The notes under the pieces were generated by a model that did not search any database, was not told the DNA's origin, and was given only the letters and a program-made list of their open reading frames with translations. From Marinobacter subterrani (GTDB lineage: Bacteria; Pseudomonadota; Gammaproteobacteria; Pseudomonadales; Oleiphilaceae), in contig NZ_LFBU01000001.1 in assembly GCF_001045555.1 (NCBI RefSeq), forward strand, positions 1,488,001 to 1,552,000: a stretch of DNA of 64,000 nucleotides, in the 5' to 3' direction. Below, in pieces: positions 16,952 through 27,462 of the stretch. Within the stretch, counting starts at the first letter, position 1, and every line of letters begins with the position of its first letter. The position numbers and the translations under genes were made by a program.

Positions 16952-18526
16952 TCACACAACGGCTTCCAAAGACTTCTTTCGCGGCCAGACCAGACTGAAT
17001 CTGGCACCGCCCAGGGTGTCGCTCCTGCCGACGAAAGCCTGGCCGCCATGCCAGTAGAGTATCCGCCGGACGATGGACAAACCGAGGCCGTAGCCGCCTG
17101 ACGTGCGGGTCCGGCTGTCGTCCAGCCGGGCAAAGGCGGTAAACACCTTTTCCCAGTCCTGCTCCGGAATACCCGGGCCGTCGTCTTCCACGTCGATCCG
17201 GCAATTGTCTTCGTCAAAATGACAATTTACGACAACCCTGCCTTCGGCATAGCGGCCTGCGTTCCCTACGAGATTCTGGATCGCCCGATGCAGATAGCGC
17301 GGCTCCACATCGGACAGCGCCCAGGTTTCGGAGGCATCTTCGATCTTGCCTTCGATGCTCAACTGGGGCCTTATCAACTGTTGCTCCGCCACGACCTGAC
17401 GAACAATATCAGTCACCGAGCATTCCTGGAGGGAGAACACCGGTCCGCCCTGCTCGAGCCTGGCGTATGTGAGAATCTCATCAATCAGCTCATCGAGTTC
17501 CTGGATATCCCCGTCAATCCCGTCCAGTTGCCGCTGCATCGAGGCCTGGTCCTTGCAGTCCTCAATCATCTGGACGCCAAACCGGATTCGGGCCACAGGG
17601 GTACGCAACTCGTGGGACACCGCATGAATCATTTCCCGCTGCACCTGAACCAGCCGTTGCATATGCTCGGCCATACCATTAAAGGACGCTGCGAGCCGGG
17701 AAATCAGGGTCCCCTCGCCCGCCTGAACTCTTGCACTCATGTCCCCGCGAGCTATACGAACCGCCACTGACTCAACGGTTCTAAGGTTGCTGTCCACTTC
17801 CCGGAGGGCCAGGAACAGGGCCAGGCCAAGCACTCCGCCGAGCACCAGCACCAGCATGAGAACAACGGGCCAGGCCCAGGGGTTGAAAGGCGGGGGCATA
17901 TCAATCCGGTAAAGCTCCCCATCCGAGAGCCGGATAATCACTCTGCCATCGCCACCGGAGTCCGCCGGATAGAAGGCCAGCCCGCGCTCGGCCACCTGAT
18001 CCAGCACATCCGGCCCCGGCAGCAGAGCACGGTCATTCAGTGGCCGGACATCCACATGCAAAGCCCGGGCTATTTGCGAGGCAACGTCCGGGCGGTTCGC
18101 CAGCGTGGTCGAATCCAGGTGCCAGCGGAAGATCAGGCCGATGGTTTCGGACACATCATGGTAGGGATGGGCAAGACGCAGTTGAAGTACCTGCCCGGAA
18201 AGATCGGTGGCCAGCACCCGGTACCCGATGTCACTGTCGATGCTGACAACCTGACCATAACCCAGCCTCTCCAGTGCCACCCGGGACAGGGCGAATTCCG
18301 ATGCATCGGCAACCCTGAGATCGACCGTCTGCTTCAGCCAGTGATACTGATGTGCCGGTGCCGGTGCGGACGCCAGCCAACGCATCAGCGGCGCCGGGAA
18401 CTGTTCATGCCAGTACTGCGAACGAACGGAATTGAGGCCGGCAAACAGGAAAACACAGAGCAGGACAACCAGCGCAGACAGGCCGGCAAGGGGGGCATAG
18501 AGCTTAAGGAAGAACTTCAGGGGCAT
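16952..18526 (-). CDS. Sensor histidine kinase, RstB-like
   Basis: Inner-membrane sensor of 524 residues, partner of the response regulator that starts upstream. Two membrane segments (about 8-30 and 190-210: WPVVLMLVLVLGGVLGLALFL) bracket a periplasmic sensing region. A HAMP segment follows, then the HisKA box HAVSHELRTPVARIRFG with the phosphorylated His, and a HATPase domain with the N box NLVGNAGRY, G1 VEDDGPGIP and G2 GGYGLGLSIVRRI. The frame is open for 15 more codons, but MPLKFFLKLYAPL is a better N terminus. E. coli RstB is PhoP-controlled and linked to stress, but the ligand here is unknown. The terminator ends this two-gene operon. Confidence 0.85.
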   Translation of the reverse strand: MPLKFFLKLYAPLAGLSALVVLLCVFLFAGLNSVRSQYWHEQFPAPLMRWLASAPAPAHQYHWLKQTVDLRVADASEFALSRVALERLGYGQVVSIDSDIGYRVLATDLSGQVLQLRLAHPYHDVSETIGLIFRWHLDSTTLANRPDVASQIARALHVDVRPLNDRALLPGPDVLDQVAERGLAFYPADSGGDGRVIIRLSDGELYRIDMPPPFNPWAWPVVLMLVLVLGGVLGLALFLALREVDSNLRTVESVAVRIARGDMSARVQAGEGTLISRLAASFNGMAEHMQRLVQVQREMIHAVSHELRTPVARIRFGVQMIEDCKDQASMQRQLDGIDGDIQELDELIDEILTYARLEQGGPVFSLQECSVTDIVRQVVAEQQLIRPQLSIEGKIEDASETWALSDVEPRYLHRAIQNLVGNAGRYAEGRVVVNCHFDEDNCRIDVEDDGPGIPEQDWEKVFTAFARLDDSRTRTSGGYGLGLSIVRRILYWHGGQAFVGRSDTLGGARFSLVWPRKKSLEAVV

Positions 18527-18593
18527 TTTACCAACCCTGGCATGGAACACCGGAGTGCAGACTGCCCGCACCCCGGTTCCAGAGACTGAATCG

Positions 18594-19331
18594 TCAGGCT
18601 TCCTTTACGAACAGGTAACCTTTACTGCGAACGGTCTTGATACGTCGAGGGTGGATAGGATCATCCCCGATTTTGGGGCGAATCCGCGACACCCGCACAT
18701 CTATTGAGCGGTCCTGGCCGTCGTACTCGATGCCGCGCAGTGCGGTAAAGATCTCTTCCCGGCTGAGCACCCGGCCTGCGTTACTGGCCAACAGCCAGAG
18801 CAAGTCAAATTCAGCGCTGGTCAGATCAATACTCTGTTCGTTCAGCCAGGCTTCACGCATGGAGCGGTCAACCACAAGGTCATTGAACTGGAGGCGCACC
18901 GGCTCTTCACCCGCAGCGTCATCGCCCGCTCCCTGCCCGGTCTCTGTTACTCGCCTGAGCATGGCGCGGATACGGGCCAGCAGAACCCTGGGCTTGACCG
19001 GCTTGCCGATGTAATCGTCGGCGCCCATTTCAAGCCCGAGGACTTGGTCCAGATCATCCGTACGGGCCGTCAGCATGATAATCGGGCCGGAATAAAACGG
19101 CCGCACCCGGCGACAGATGGAAAGACCATCCTCCCCCGGCAGCATCAGATCCAGCACCACCAGATCGGGCTGCTCGTTGCGGATCCGCTCAACCGCAGGG
19201 CCACCATGAGTTTCAAGGGAGACGGTCAACCCGTTGCTTTCAAGGTATTCCCGGGTCAACTCAGCCAATCGCTCGTCGTCCTCGACAATCAGAATTCGCC
19301 AGCTTTCGTTTGTCTGTTCCACGCCATCCAT
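18594..19331 (-). CDS. OmpR/PhoB-type response regulator, RstA-like
   Basis: A 245-residue transcription regulator. Receiver domain: ILIVEDDERLAELTREYL with the acidic pair, the phospho-accepting Asp in LVVLDLMLPGEDG, and the conserved Lys in DYIGKPVKPR. The DNA-binding winged helix occupies the last 100 residues (LTSAEFDLLWLLASNAGRVLSREEI, RSIDVRVSRIRPKIGDD). The receiver resembles E. coli RstA closely (CRRVRPFYSGPIIMLTARTDD, LEMGADDYI). The kinase gene begins 68 bases after its stop. It is divergent from olsB across 246 bases; whether it acts on that region is unknown. Confidence 0.87.
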   Translation of the reverse strand: MDGVEQTNESWRILIVEDDERLAELTREYLESNGLTVSLETHGGPAVERIRNEQPDLVVLDLMLPGEDGLSICRRVRPFYSGPIIMLTARTDDLDQVLGLEMGADDYIGKPVKPRVLLARIRAMLRRVTETGQGAGDDAAGEEPVRLQFNDLVVDRSMREAWLNEQSIDLTSAEFDLLWLLASNAGRVLSREEIFTALRGIEYDGQDRSIDVRVSRIRPKIGDDPIHPRRIKTVRSKGYLFVKEA

Positions 19332-19490
19332 CTCTGGTTTTGTTATTCCGGTTTCAGGTCATTCTGTGTACCTGACAATACAGGCAACCTGCTGTAACAG
19401 CAATTATACATGCTATTCAGAAATATACATGGAACCGCTGCTTGGTTACAGCCTGTGACACAGCGCCCGGAAAAGTCACCTGGCACGGCG

Positions 19491-19546
19491 ATGTCACAGA
19501 TACGTCACCTCGTGGTCACCGGTGTGTCACACCGTATTCATAGGCT
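19491..19546 (+). promoter_or_regulatory. Tandem PhoB-box-like repeats and candidate -10 upstream of olsB
   Basis: GTCAC occurs at 19493, 19504, 19515 and 19526, exactly 11 bases apart. This is the spacing of Pho boxes (7-bp CTGTCAT/C half sites with 4-bp spacers), here as four half sites. Ten bases after the last half site is TAGGCT (19541-19546), a weak -10 at the position used in PhoB-dependent promoters. A fifth GTCAC at 19475 is out of phase. The olsB ATG is 48 bases beyond the last half site. Confidence 0.7.
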
Positions 19547-19577: not shown

Positions 19578-20339
19578 ATGACCACACAGACCGCGAAAGC
19601 CCGCCGCAATGCACGCCAGCTGAAAGCCGACCTGACCCGGTGCCCGAAAAGGTTGGAGGCGGCGCAGCGCCTGCGCTACCGGGTGTTCTCGGAAGAGTAC
19701 GAAAGCGATCTCGGAGCGGAAACACCGGGCCTCGATGCCGATGCATTCGACGCCGTGTGCGACCACCTCATTGTGACGGACCAGGACACCGGTGAACTGG
19801 TGGCAACCACCCGGATCCTGCATCAGGAAAACTCCCGGGCCGTAGGCGGTTTCTACTCGGCCGGCGAGTTTGATCTGAGCGCCCTGGATAATCTGCCGGG
19901 CACAATCGCCGAACTGGGCCGCACCTGCGTCCACCCGGACTATCGCAACGGCGCCACCATCAGCCTGCTCTGGTCTGCCGTAGCCGACTATCTGGTTGAA
20001 CGGGATGTCGAATATATGATCGGGTGTGCCAGCATCGGTATGTCCGATGGCGGCCTGAAAGCCTGGCGTATTGCCCGCCACCTGCAGAAGGAATATCTGG
20101 CCGACCCGGCGTTCCTGGTCAAACCACGCCGGGAACTGCCCCATCTGACCGACACCCGGGACAACGACCGCCCGGTTGACGTACCCGCCCTTATCCGGGC
20201 CTACATGCGGCTGGGCGCGAGAGTCTGTGGCGAGCCGTGCTGGGACCCGGATTTCCGCTGCGCGGACCTGCTGGTCCTGCTGGAAGTCCGGAAACTGGCC
20301 GGCCGGTACAGCCGGCATTACATGCGTTCGGTGCCCTGA
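19578..20339 (+). CDS. olsB: L-ornithine N-alpha-acyltransferase (OlsB, GNAT fold)
   Basis: First step of ornithine-lipid synthesis: transfers a 3-hydroxyacyl chain from ACP to the alpha-amino group of ornithine, giving lyso-ornithine lipid. The 253 residues show the OlsB-type GNAT core: AAQRLRYRVFSEEYESDL, DHLIVTDQDTGELVATTRIL, and the acyl-carrier region IAELGRTCVHPDYRNG. The frame is open for 56 codons upstream, but that segment covers the promoter repeats and has no ribosome site. ATG at 19578 has AAGAGA upstream. The olsA gene follows after 27 bases. Phosphate-free ornithine lipids replace phospholipids in phosphate-starved bacteria, which fits the Pho-type repeats upstream. Confidence 0.88.
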   Translation: MTTQTAKARRNARQLKADLTRCPKRLEAAQRLRYRVFSEEYESDLGAETPGLDADAFDAVCDHLIVTDQDTGELVATTRILHQENSRAVGGFYSAGEFDLSALDNLPGTIAELGRTCVHPDYRNGATISLLWSAVADYLVERDVEYMIGCASIGMSDGGLKAWRIARHLQKEYLADPAFLVKPRRELPHLTDTRDNDRPVDVPALIRAYMRLGARVCGEPCWDPDFRCADLLVLLEVRKLAGRYSRHYMRSVP

Positions 20340-20366: not shown

Positions 20367-21227
20367 ATGGGCTGGCTCCGACTGGGCGTTCGCCTCACCA
20401 CCTTTACACTTTTTCTGGCGGCCACCACGTCCATCGCGACGGCCTTGCGCCTGGCGGATGGCATAACCCGGCGAACCGCCGACCGAACCCCCTGGGCCCG
20501 GTTCTGCTTCCGCTGGGCCTGCCGCTGCCTGGGACTGGACATCCACCAGCACGGTGCACCCGCAGACACCAACGTTCTGTTTGTCAGCAATCACATCAGC
20601 TGGACAGACATCCCGATCCTGGGCAGCCTGGCGCCGACCCGCTTCCTCTCGAAGGCAGAAGTCGGCCAGTGGCCGCTCATCGGCTGGCTTGCCAGGGAAG
20701 CGGGCACGCTCTTTATCAGGCGAGGCGGCGGACAGGCCAGGCGGGTCCGCAACCAGATCAGCGAAAACCTGAAAGCCGGTGAGTCCGTCCTGGTCTTCCC
20801 GGAGGGCACAACCAGCGCTGGCCTGACCGTGCTACCTCTCCACGGGCTCCTGCTCAAAGCCGCGTCAGAAAGCAACACGCCCATTCAGCCCGTCACCATC
20901 AGTTACCGTCGCGCGGGGCGGCCGGACCATCTGGCCCCGTTCATTGGTGACGATGACTTTCACCGCCACCTTCCGAGAATGCTCCGGCAGCCACCGGCAA
21001 GAGTGGATGTGGTTTTCCATCCGGTGGTCACAGTACCGGCAGAGACCGGAGCCGGCGATCTTACCCGCCAGCTACGTGAGGTGATGCTCGAAGGACTCGC
21101 CCGCGTTCACCGGGGCGAGCTGGATGATGGCGAAGCGTGCCCGGTCAGAACAGCGGGCGGCCCTGAGCGACCTCATCTTCCGTCGCTTCACGGCGGCCAA
21201 CAATCTCCAGATCAAAGTACAGGGTGA
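20367..21227 (+). CDS. olsA: Lyso-ornithine lipid O-acyltransferase (OlsA, PlsC family)
   Basis: Second step of ornithine-lipid synthesis: O-acylation of lyso-ornithine lipid at the membrane. The 286 residues begin with a hydrophobic anchor (about 10-30). The PlsC catalytic motif NHISWTD gives His76 and Asp81 (HX4D), and FPEGTTS is the third acyltransferase motif. A strong AGGAGG site precedes the ATG. Being downstream of olsB makes OlsA more likely than a general PlsC, though family members can do both. Its last 83 bases overlap the end of the convergent FKBP gene. Confidence 0.85.
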   Translation: MGWLRLGVRLTTFTLFLAATTSIATALRLADGITRRTADRTPWARFCFRWACRCLGLDIHQHGAPADTNVLFVSNHISWTDIPILGSLAPTRFLSKAEVGQWPLIGWLAREAGTLFIRRGGGQARRVRNQISENLKAGESVLVFPEGTTSAGLTVLPLHGLLLKAASESNTPIQPVTISYRRAGRPDHLAPFIGDDDFHRHLPRMLRQPPARVDVVFHPVVTVPAETGAGDLTRQLREVMLEGLARVHRGELDDGEACPVRTAGGPERPHLPSLHGGQQSPDQSTG

Positions 21228-24545: not shown

Positions 24546-25583
24546 TCACGGGCAGGGGTAGGTGAACTCCTGGTGAATCGCCTCAATGGCCTGCTGCACC
24601 TCCGGGCTCAGGGTGACACCGGCGGAGCCAATGTTTTCGCGCAGTTGCTCCATGGATGTCGCCCCAATGATGTTACTGGTGACAAAGCTGCGGCTGTTGA
24701 CATAGGCAAGCGCCATCTGGACCGGCGACAGCCCGTGCTGGCGGGCGAGCTCGACATAGGCCCGGGTGGCTTCCATGCCGCGGCTGTTGGTATAACGGCT
24801 GAACCGCTCATACAGGGTCATCCGCGCTTTTTCCGGCCACTTGCCGCCCAGATACTTGCCGGACAGCATACCGAAGGCCAGCGGCGAATAGGCCAGCAAG
24901 CCTGCCTGCTCCCGGTGGGCAATTTCCGCCATACCCACCTCGAACGACCGGTTCAGGAGGTTGTACGGGTTCTGGATGCTGGCCACCCGTGGCCAGCTCT
25001 TCTCGCGGGCCAGGCGCAGGTATTCCATGGTGCCCCAGGGCGTTTCGTTGGACAGGCCGACATGCCGGATCTTGCCCGCCTTGACCAGTTCATCCAGCGC
25101 CCCGAGGGTTTCTTCGATGGGCGTAAACTGTTCGTCCGGGTTGTTTTCATACCCCAGCTTGCCAAAGAAATTGGTCGCGCGGTCCGGCCAGTGCACCTGG
25201 TACAGATCGATGTAATCCGTCTGAAGGCGCTGCAGGCTGGCGTCGCAGGCGGCAACGATATGATCGCGGGTCAGGCGCGGCCCGTTACGCAGGTAACTCA
25301 GGCCATTGCCGGGGCCGGCGACCTTGGACGCAATCACCAGATCATCGCGCCGGCCTCTCCTGGCCAGCCAGTTGCCCAGATAGGTCTCGGTCAGCCCCTG
25401 GGTCTCCGCCTTCGGGGGCACCGGGTACATCTCCGCGGCATCAATGAAGTTGATGCCCTCGGCCATGGCGTAATCCAGCTGCTCGAATGCTTCCTGCTCG
25501 GTGTTCTGCTCGCCCCAGGTCATGGTGCCCAGGCAGATCAGGGTAACGTCGATATCCGTCTTTCCAAGCTTTCGTGTTTGCAT
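24546..25583 (-). CDS. Aldo/keto reductase, Tas-like
   Basis: NADP(H)-dependent oxidoreductase of 345 residues with the AKR TIM barrel. Visible catalytic set: Asp and Tyr in NFIDAAEMYP (about 51-60), Lys in VIASKVAG, His in YQVHWPDR. The long insert after EMYP and the Tas-type motif GNWLARRGRRDDLVIASK match E. coli Tas. Cofactor region ATSMEQLRENI lies near the C terminus. Substrate is unknown; Tas can rescue tyrosine auxotrophs in E. coli. Divergent from the glycosyltransferase gene across 114 bases that hold a Pho-type promoter on the other strand. Confidence 0.9.
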   Translation of the reverse strand: MQTRKLGKTDIDVTLICLGTMTWGEQNTEQEAFEQLDYAMAEGINFIDAAEMYPVPPKAETQGLTETYLGNWLARRGRRDDLVIASKVAGPGNGLSYLRNGPRLTRDHIVAACDASLQRLQTDYIDLYQVHWPDRATNFFGKLGYENNPDEQFTPIEETLGALDELVKAGKIRHVGLSNETPWGTMEYLRLAREKSWPRVASIQNPYNLLNRSFEVGMAEIAHREQAGLLAYSPLAFGMLSGKYLGGKWPEKARMTLYERFSRYTNSRGMEATRAYVELARQHGLSPVQMALAYVNSRSFVTSNIIGATSMEQLRENIGSAGVTLSPEVQQAIEAIHQEFTYPCP

Positions 25584-25620
25584 ATCGTCTCCGATTCGTT
25601 GCGATTAACGGGTAAAGGGA

Positions 25621-25665
25621 ATGTCACGGGAGTGTCGCAGAACTGTCATGCCAGGTTTCCATAGT
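25621..25665 (+). promoter_or_regulatory. PhoB-box promoter upstream of the glycosyltransferase gene
   Basis: Three 7-bp half sites on an 11-bp repeat: ATGTCAC (25621-25627), GTGTCGC (25632-25638) and CTGTCAT (25643-25649). The last is a perfect PhoB half site. Exactly 10 bases later is CATAGT (25660-25665), a -10 that differs by one base from the TATAGT of E. coli phoA at the same distance. The GTG start of the glycosyltransferase is 33 bases further. Confidence 0.75.
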
Positions 25666-25697: not shown

Positions 25698-26918
25698 GTG
25701 ACCAAGACCACGCAGGCCACCCGGCGCCAACAACACATTACCATTGTTTCGGAGACTTTTCCCCCGGAAATCAATGGCGTGGCAAACACGCTCAGGCACC
25801 TGTGCCAGGGGCTGATGCAGCGTGGGCACCGGGTAACCGTTATACGGCCGCGACAGCAACATGAGAGCAAGGGGTATTTCGCCAGCGCCGGAGAGGCCCT
25901 GTTCAACCGCGAGCATCTGGTTACCGGGTTGCCGCTGCCCGGCTACGCCAATCTGCGATTCGGCCTGGTACGCAGCAGCCGGCTGGAGAGACTCTGGGCA
26001 GCGGACCGCCCCGACGCGGTTTACGTGGCCACCCAGGGGCCGCTTGGTGTCGCCGCCACCACCGCGGCAAAGCAACTGGGCATTCCGGTGAGTTCCGGAT
26101 TCCATACCAATTTCCACAGCTACAGCCGCTACTACGGTGTCGGCATGCTTGAACGGCTGCTCTGCCTCTACGGGCGATGGTTCCATAACCGCACCGCCAT
26201 CACCCTGGTCCCCACCCGAAAAATGCAACAGAAAACCGGCGCCATGGGCATCCCGGCGACAGGGCTTTGGAGCCGGGGGGTTGATTGTCACCGTTTCAGC
26301 CCTCATCTAAGGGATAATGCTCTGCGCCAATCCTGGGGGCTTGAGGCCAACGACCGGGCCATCCTCTATGTGGGTCGACTGGCACCGGAGAAAAACCTTC
26401 GCATGGCAGTTGCCTGCTTCGAGCGCATCCGCGGGCTTCACCCCCAGGCAAAGTTTGTGCTGGTGGGCGATGGCCCGCTTCGGCGACAACTGGCCGAACG
26501 TCATCCGGACTACATTTTCTGTGGCACCCGCCGGGGCAACGACCTGGCCCGGCATTTCGCATCCGGTGATCTGTTCCTGTTCCCCAGCAAAACCGACACC
26601 TTCGGCAATGTTGTTCTCGAAGCCATGGCCAGTGGGCTTGGCGTGGTTGCCTTTGATGACGCCGCTGCCGCGGAACACATCCGGCACGAAGAAAACGGCA
26701 TGAAAGTGCCGCTGGACCAGGACGAGGCCTATGTGGACAGCGCCCTCCGGCTGGTCGACCAGCCGACACTGCTGAACCGGATTCGGGCCCAGGCCCGCCT
26801 GGACGCCCTGGAACTGAGCTGGAATTCGCAAATCGAACAGTTTGAACAACTGGTTTTCAACCAAACCGCAAAGGCCGGATACCATGTCATCAACAAGCAA
26901 AGCGTCTCGCTTCTTTGA
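25698..26918 (+). CDS. GT4-family glycosyltransferase (GT-B fold; SqdX/MgtA/Agt-like)
   Basis: A 406-residue glycosyltransferase. N-terminal acceptor domain: ITIVSETFPPEINGVANTLRHLCQGLMQRGH and SGFHTNFHSYSRYYGVG. The C-terminal nucleotide-sugar domain has LYVGRLAPEKNL and the retaining-GT4 EX7E region FPSKTDTFGNVVLEAMASGL. These are shared with lipid glycosyltransferases such as SqdX and Agt-type diacylglycerol glycosyltransferases and with mannosyltransferases MgtA. GTG start at 25698, AGGAAA upstream. Overlaps the PAP2 gene by 35 bases. The Pho-type promoter and PAP2 partner favour a glycolipid role (sugar onto diacylglycerol), but donor and acceptor are inferred, not shown. Confidence 0.8.
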   Translation: MTKTTQATRRQQHITIVSETFPPEINGVANTLRHLCQGLMQRGHRVTVIRPRQQHESKGYFASAGEALFNREHLVTGLPLPGYANLRFGLVRSSRLERLWAADRPDAVYVATQGPLGVAATTAAKQLGIPVSSGFHTNFHSYSRYYGVGMLERLLCLYGRWFHNRTAITLVPTRKMQQKTGAMGIPATGLWSRGVDCHRFSPHLRDNALRQSWGLEANDRAILYVGRLAPEKNLRMAVACFERIRGLHPQAKFVLVGDGPLRRQLAERHPDYIFCGTRRGNDLARHFASGDLFLFPSKTDTFGNVVLEAMASGLGVVAFDDAAAAEHIRHEENGMKVPLDQDEAYVDSALRLVDQPTLLNRIRAQARLDALELSWNSQIEQFEQLVFNQTAKAGYHVINKQSVSLL

Positions 26919-27462
26919 TCTGGCGGATCAGCGGGAATACGCGTTCTGCCAGTCCATCAACCGCGCCGTTCGGTTCAGGGCAGCACTGGGTTACTTGCGG
27001 CTGACCAGCCGGCTCGGAGACGGCTGGTTCTGGTATGCCCTGATTCTTGTCATTCCCCTGATCTACCCGGTCTCGGGGCCTGGCCTGGCTCTGCTGATGG
27101 CACTGACCGGACTTTCCTGCACTCTTGCTTACAAGCTGCTCAAACGATGGCTGATCCGGGAACGGCCGTTTATTTCATTTCCGGCCATCAACTGCGGCAC
27201 GCCGCCGCTGGACCGCTACAGTTTTCCCTCCGGCCACACACTCCATGCCGCCTGCTTTCAGGTTATGCTGGCCCTGGCAGAGCCGGTCCTGGCGTTGGCG
27301 GTACTGCCCTTCACCCTCAGTGTTGCCGCGTCACGGGTGATACTCGGATTGCATTACCCCAGCGATGTTCTCGCGGGCGCCCTGATCGGCGGACTGATGG
27401 GGTACGCAGCCATGGCCCTGGCCTACAGTGATTTTGTATTGCTCTTCGGCGGGGCGGCCTAA
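26884..27462 (+). CDS. PAP2-family phosphatase (membrane)
   Basis: A 192-residue integral membrane phosphatase. The three phosphatase motifs are intact: KRWLIRERP (KX6RP), YSFPSGH (PSGH) and [12 protein letters not shown] (SRX5HX3D). About five hydrophobic segments surround them. The frame is open upstream, but the ATG at 26884 has AAGG close by; it overlaps the glycosyltransferase end by 35 bases, implying co-translation. Family substrates include phosphatidate, phosphatidylglycerophosphate and undecaprenyl pyrophosphate. With the upstream glycosyltransferase, making diacylglycerol from phosphatidate is a sensible guess. Stops 4 bases inside the convergent dinB gene. Confidence 0.88.

Follow-up and report, generated by a model that had tools for sequence, protein, structure and literature searches.

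Organization of the GT4–PAP2 locus

The window analyzed here is the whole 64,000-nucleotide stretch of the Marinobacter subterrani genome. Within it, an intergenic region lies between a divergent aldo-keto reductase gene and a glycosyltransferase gene of the GT4 type, and the latter overlaps a gene for a PAP2 lipid phosphatase. The features of this locus are as follows.

24546–25583, minus strand: divergent aldo-keto reductase gene (NF007912, 468 bits, over the cut-off), sharing its intergenic region with the Pho box
25610–25616, plus strand: degenerate fourth half site GGGTAAA, in register, one step 5′ of the box (from the sequence, relatives, and conserved columns)
25621–25649, plus strand: Pho box of three 11-bp direct repeats, ATGTCAC (25621–25627), GTGTCGC (25632–25638), and CTGTCAT (25643–25649) (from the sequence, a chance control, and conservation)
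25660–25665, plus strand: −10 element CATAGT, separated from the last half site by a 10-base spacer (25650–25659)
25698–26918, plus strand: GT4 glycosyltransferase gene, Agt2 (PA0842) orthologue, with a conserved AGGAA-like stretch before its GTG start
26884–27462, plus strand: PAP2 lipid phosphatase gene, with an ATG start, a 35-base overlap with the 3′ end of GT4, and the motifs K-x6-RP, PSGH, and SR-x5-H-x3-D

Between the aldo-keto reductase and GT4 genes, the promoter reads ATGTCAC-GGGA-GTGTCGC-AGAA-CTGTCAT-N10-CATAGT. A preliminary description of this DNA had noted three half sites at exact 11-bp steps, the last one being CTGTCAT, with CATAGT 10 bases further on, and the sequence confirms this arrangement. 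Its reading of the region as a Pho-type promoter is backed by position, spacing, genus-wide conservation, and the presence of a bona fide PhoB in the genome. The position of the fourth half site reads CTGTCAT in L140 and CTGTCAC in L142, both from Marinobacter relatives. The aldo-keto reductase is probably not a target of the Pho box.

Conservation of the Pho box

On both strands, each site was scored by comparing three heptamers with CTGTCA[TC], for a maximum of 21. The window site scores 18, the top score in 64 kb. A first-order Markov control yielded a single match of at least 18 in 12.9 million positions (CATAGT not counted), and the sites expected by chance amount to ∼0.01 per 64-kb window and 0.7 per genome. 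In a first set of Marinobacter sequences, all 49 distinct upstream sequences score at least 17, the best-scoring triple of L055 sitting one step downstream. In a larger set, a triple site scoring at least 16 is found 5′ of GT4 in 54 of 54 distinct promoter sequences. One and the same species appears among the 69 Marinobacter loci in named as well as unnamed copies, and upstream sequences that are identical were counted once, giving 54. The 49-sequence set is without L070 and L071, and a motif filter removed L062 and L064 (L064 does have the box, and L062 has its 3′ part); L139 was left out of the 54-sequence set, too. Across the 54 sequences, the mean majority fraction is 0.978 for the CATAGT columns, 0.867 for the box, 0.698 for the 10-base spacer, and 0.721 and 0.775 for the flanks. 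CACACT replaces CATAGT in L023, L029, and L030. A chance origin of the Pho box was rejected on the grounds of the Markov control and its conservation in 54 of 54 promoters.

Pho-like boxes were also found upstream of GT4 in related groups, which are given here by family label (f20 is Pseudomonas by the names of its members, and the second genus of f20 was placed by inference). Scores of at least 16 were obtained for both loci from other f1 genera, five of seven in f38, four of seven in f36, 12 of 16 in Pseudomonas, and one each in f43 and f9. At most 0.1% of shuffled sequences reach this score, and at most 1.7% of random stretches taken from these loci. Weaker promoters account for the remaining loci of f36 (3/7, with scores of 14, 15, and 15), f38 (2/7; 14 and 15), and Pseudomonas (4/16; 13, 15, 15, and 15). 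No box of at least 16 was present upstream of GT4 in the three f35 loci (10, 12, and 15) or the single f5 locus (13).

When the genome (4.45 Mb, two contigs) was scanned with a loose pattern allowing up to three mismatches, the 26 matches showed no excess over the 27 of a reversed control, and the motif alone therefore defines no regulon. Only the window site matches without a mismatch, but the pattern had been loosened with an eye to this site. The pattern CTGTCATN4CTGTCAT with up to three mismatches gave 303 matches versus 171 in the control; the window site needs three mismatches to match it. The case for the Pho site stands on conservation and context, not on motif counts, and on these grounds Pho control of the GT4–PAP2 pair is very likely.

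Other Pho-type boxes in the genome

The genome encodes PhoB (354 bits versus a family cut-off of 296.2). Ten matches of the loose pattern have at most two mismatches and lie at six places, four of which precede GT4, olsB, plcP, and phnC. The phnC gene has a gene for a phosphonate-binding protein behind it, and the genes behind the other two places (L080 and L081) show no evident phosphate link. The olsBA genes are situated 5 kb from the GT4 site, inside the window.

19480–19530, plus strand: olsBA box of the Pho type, with five half sites in 11-bp steps and TAGGCT 10 bases later (from the sequence and relatives)
19578–20339, plus strand: olsB-like gene of the ornithine N-acyltransferase family (best NCBIfam match 158 bits, below the cut-off), start taken as ATG 19578
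20367–21227, plus strand: olsA-like gene of the lyso-ornithine-lipid acyltransferase family (144 bits, below the cut-off)

Among 33 Marinobacter loci examined, all 27 relatives' loci with olsB within 8 kb carry an olsB box scoring at least 16. In the window genome, plcP lies on contig C2, encodes a metallophosphoesterase resembling PlcP, and has a Pho-type box upstream. Its name comes from 46% identity to the gene next to Agt1 in Pseudomonas, and it is below the cut-off for LpxH models. Twenty-nine of 30 plcP promoters score at least 16, and L131 scores 15. At GT4, olsBA, and plcP alike, a hexamer of the form xAxxxT follows 10 bases after the last half site (CATAGT, TAGGCT, and CAAGGT, respectively). 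The similar boxes at olsBA and the distant plcP add to the earlier observation of the GT4 site, and the three boxes plausibly form one Pho lipid module.

Divergent from olsBA lies a two-component pair (16952–19331) that is most like RstB/RstA, below the cut-off. Elsewhere in the genome, porin-type genes (Porin_4, DcaP-like) at L098 and L090 are preceded by weaker Pho-like repeats with three mismatches.

The GT4 protein as an orthologue of Agt2

Thirty-three of 34 named loci matching the GT4 protein belong to Marinobacter, with identities of up to 92%. The family domains are present, and the protein is below every NCBIfam cut-off shown; its best matches are GlcN-PG synthase (131 bits) and MGlcDAG synthase (85 bits), both below cut-off. 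A tree of 63 rows places GT4 among genes of related families, this group next being joined by one Pseudomonas clade, with the plcP-adjacent Agt1 clade standing separately. The branch joining the window clade and the Pseudomonas clade has a support of 94/87, just under the mark. For the Agt1 rows, eight of 12 plcP loci passed a 90-bit filter, two of them being the same gene. The deeper order of the tree is unsure because Agt1 and a fusion glycosyltransferase (see below) are long branches.

The Pseudomonas member L210 (genome G503) has the gene order ceramidase-like, plcH, plcR, GT4, degV-like, and oxidoreductase. Its plcH and plcR are profile matches over the cut-off, and the names of the ceramidase-like, degV-like, and oxidoreductase genes are our own assignments. 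This order presumably corresponds to PA0845–PA0840 of Pseudomonas aeruginosa. P0241, a P. aeruginosa record, shares 97% identity with the L210 GT4 protein, and the anchoring to PA0842 combines this record with the gene order. Judged by tree and gene order, the window GT4 is an orthologue of Agt2 (PA0842). The lipid-type GT4 of the preliminary description is thereby supported and sharpened, as the tree places the window protein with Agt2 and rejects an Agt1 identity. A SqdX identity is unlikely because GT4 groups with Agt2. At L210, the agt2-like gene follows plcH-plcR, the secreted phospholipase C operon, and a lipid-cleaving enzyme thus again stands beside Agt2.

Expression of PA0842 in Escherichia coli leads to GlcA-DAG; the protein becomes more abundant when phosphate is depleted, and its gene carries a Pho box (available text of PMC8528852). 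Glycosylation of diacylglycerol by the window GT4 is likely, judging from this kinship. The protein is 48–51% identical to the Pseudomonas Agt2-type proteins, and we therefore infer its donor sugar. Three NDP-sugar dehydrogenases over the cut-off are encoded in the genome and could supply the donor. The model of GT4 (pLDDT 84) adopts a GT-B fold and is nearest to BshA, MshA, and PimB′, matches that settle neither donor nor acceptor.

The genome also codes for a 747-amino acid protein (L102:3330–5573; G000:C1:2386329–2388572), in which a calcineurin-like phosphoesterase (weak match) is fused to a GT4 domain. Its gene sits behind that of a polytopic membrane protein. Among the matches listed, ∼28% identity matches in long frames occur in many of the 120 Marinobacter genomes. 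As an Agt2 orthologue this protein was rejected, being a phosphoesterase–GT4 fusion of 28% identity with a best Pho score nearby of 14. Its GT4 part matches MGlcDAG synthase with 202 bits (below the cut-off of 400), so that the window GT4 is not the sole candidate diacylglycerol glycosyltransferase of the genome. The fusion is possibly a one-protein diacylglycerol-to-glycolipid enzyme.

The PAP2 phosphatase and its coupling to GT4

Across 28 aligned PAP2 sequences, none of the residues of the three catalytic motifs varies. The PAP2 model has an overall pLDDT of 82 (<50 at residues 95–110) and is nearest to Bacillus subtilis PgpB (E 3.8e-5), followed by Aquifex aeolicus LpxE (E 1.6e-3). LpxE is also the best PDB sequence match, and the family matches (PgpB, LpxE, SepP-type) are all weak. 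The three intact motifs and the fold bear out the earlier assignment as a PAP2 phosphatase. Phosphatidate is only a putative substrate, because fold and sequence are nearest to phosphatases of PGP and lipid A and because some records label the protein undecaprenyl-diphosphatase.

In Marinobacter, all 69 loci have PAP2 motifs behind GT4, and PAP2 adjoins GT4 in 21 of 21 first-copy loci of six other groups (f36, 7/7; f38, 7/7 first copies; f35, 3/3; f43, 1/1; f5, 1/1; other f1 genera, 2/2). The two genes overlap in f1, f36, f38, and f43, whereas f35 has gaps of 16–135 bases. No PAP2 gene was found beside GT4 in seven Pseudomonas loci, the one f9 locus, or three f38 second copies. A cruder motif test of 11 further Pseudomonas loci left nine without a PAP2 motif; L147 has a spurious out-of-frame string, and L155 was unread.

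Two GT4 matches occur in each of 11 f38 genomes. In L177, L220, and L221, the second copy has 40–44% identity, is without PAP2, and lies ∼5–11 kb from the first copy on the opposite strand.

Distribution of plcP

According to the available text of PMC4796936, diacylglycerol requires either dephosphorylation of phosphatidate or a phospholipase C, PlcP is the expected major diacylglycerol source in marine heterotrophs and phosphatidate phosphatase in cyanobacteria, and adjacency of plcP to a glycosyltransferase gene is common, but not universal, in the PlcP–Agt pathway. On contig C2 of the window genome, plcP has no glycosyltransferase neighbor in the 7.5 kb listed.

Among 120 Marinobacter genomes, plcP is present in 67. 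Sixty-five genomes have GT4 and plcP, 33 GT4 only, two plcP only, and 20 neither (Fisher p = 1.2e-6 for co-occurrence, with relatedness ignored). The two plcP-only genomes are G059 (83% complete) and G107 (82%). In G036, G045, G055, and G071, four of the 98 genomes positive for GT4, the copies are partial or split.

In a sample of 390 genomes of the order (GT4 orthologue at E <1e-75, plcP at E ≤1e-30), 68 carry a GT4 orthologue, 31 of them with plcP and 37 without. At a looser E of 1e-10, 14 plcP-negative genomes (among 28 rechecked) were still negative. Of the GT4-bearing genomes, plcP is found in 14/14 of Pseudomonas, 4/4 of f9, 1/1 of f5, 9/17 of f1, and 3/17 of f36, and in none of f35 (0/3), f38 (0/11), and f43 (0/1). 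In three of the four f9 genomes, plcP and GT4 are ∼3.5 kb apart. The PAP2-less lineages seen (Pseudomonas and f9) thus have plcP and the PAP2-bearing ones are often without it, a contrast drawn from related, non-independent genomes in part of which PAP2 adjacency was read.

Proposed pathway and alternatives

We propose that, at low phosphate, PhoB~P would bind the 11-bp repeats (25610–25649) in place of a −35 element. Transcription would start ∼25 bases upstream of GTG 25698 and give one transcript for two coupled enzymes. PAP2 would dephosphorylate phosphatidate, or a similar phospholipid phosphate, to diacylglycerol, a role in the pathway that is plausible for this putative phosphatase. The Agt2-type GT4 would then add a sugar to diacylglycerol, a uronic acid or hexose and most likely glucuronic acid from UDP-glucuronate. 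The product would be a phosphorus-free anionic glycolipid able to replace phosphatidylglycerol. In the M. subterrani strain, PlcP, encoded elsewhere with a box of its own, would also feed diacylglycerol, and olsBA would add ornithine lipids. Taken as a whole, we consider this explanation probable.

We think it rather unlikely that GT4 is instead a Pho-controlled Agt2 synthase fed by PlcP or head-group turnover, with PAP2 serving in housekeeping (PGP or undecaprenyl-diphosphate) or in phosphate recovery from lipid phosphates. Such a division of labor would agree with the near-constant company of plcP and GT4 in Marinobacter (65 of 67 plcP genomes), with the weak matches of PAP2 to PgpB, LpxE, and SepP-type families, with a Pseudomonas Agt2 that has no PAP2 partner, and with P. 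aeruginosa plcP mutants being called glycolipid-deficient in the available text of PMC8528852. However, 37 of the 68 GT4-bearing genomes of the order sample are without plcP, and six other groups retain the pairing, the genes overlapping in four of them (f1, f36, f38, and f43), which is unusual for an unrelated housekeeping gene.

GT4 families vary in their acceptors, and the best PDB sequence match of PAP2 is LpxE. Both would suit a low-phosphate modification by GT4 of an acceptor other than a glyceride (lipid A, LPS core, or an undecaprenyl-linked sugar), with PAP2 dephosphorylating the same acceptor in an LpxE-like manner. We regard this as very improbable in view of the orthology to PA0842, which made GlcA-DAG in E. 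coli (PMC8528852, available text), and of the two best NCBIfam matches of GT4, which are lipid glycosyltransferases, both below cut-off. The slightest chance is left to the notion that another regulator of the OmpR family recognizes the repeats or that they act on the divergent aldo-keto reductase gene. OmpR-family sites can resemble each other, an RstA-like regulator is encoded at 18594–19331, and the box starts 38 bases from the start of the aldo-keto reductase. Yet the −10 element is directed toward GT4, boxes like this one stand before phnC, plcP, and olsBA, and the heptamer, 11-bp step, and −10 distance are those of phoA. They are also those of the consensus printed in PMC8528852.

The pair is thus best read as a Pho-controlled phosphatidate-to-glycolipid operon able to run without PlcP. 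The conserved pairing and the many GT4 genomes lacking plcP strengthen the proposed path from phosphatidate to glycolipid. More tentatively, and short of calling it probable, we suggest that the PAP2–Agt2 operon may be a widespread PlcP-independent remodeling route in Marinobacter and several related gammaproteobacterial families, which would tap phosphatidate directly and not the head groups of finished phospholipid, and that Pseudomonas may have lost PAP2 where PlcP–Agt1 is present. In work on phosphorus-free lipid remodeling of marine heterotrophs, plcP is used as the marker (available text of PMC4796936). Should PAP2–Agt2 provide diacylglycerol by itself, plcP-based surveys would underestimate the trait, given the 37 of 68 GT4 genomes without it, and the diacylglycerol source would become a testable question in culturable Marinobacter.

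Comparison with known systems

The E. coli phoA promoter has TGTCA repeats at 11 bp and a TATAGT −10 element placed 10 bases after them. The window promoter shares with phoA the 11-bp TGTCA repeats and the 10-base distance to the −10 element, but has three clear half sites plus a degenerate one, and CATAGT instead of TATAGT. With Agt2 (PA0842), the window GT4 has its clade, domains, upstream Pho-type box, and a plcP in the genome in common; in contrast to Agt2, the Marinobacter GT4 is coupled to PAP2, whereas the P. aeruginosa-type L210 has plcH-plcR upstream and no PAP2. PgpB and LpxE share the fold and the three catalytic motifs with the window PAP2, which differs from them by low identity (23–25% in the fold alignment), a Pho-type promoter, and its coupling to a glycosyltransferase.

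The open-licence literature searched yielded no description of a Pho-controlled phosphatidate-phosphatase route in heterotrophs, and nothing on PlcP lipid remodeling in Marinobacter or on PlcP together with PAP2. Within it, work since 2021 on Agt2 and glucuronic acid glycolipids concerns P. aeruginosa, papers on the Pho regulon and phosphate starvation name Marinobacter a single time each, and PMC4796936 is the one that takes up phosphatidate phosphatase, phosphate starvation, and glycolipids together. The PlcP–Agt pathway is a phosphate-controlled swap of phospholipid for glycolipid via diacylglycerol, and the window genome, too, possesses a Pho-boxed plcP. Unlike in that pathway, this plcP is unlinked to a glycosyltransferase gene, and many GT4 genomes are without plcP. 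The glycosyltransferase, the box, and the pathway each belong to a kind already known; what is new is the coupling to PAP2 under Pho control, together with the spread of this coupling among genomes that lack plcP.
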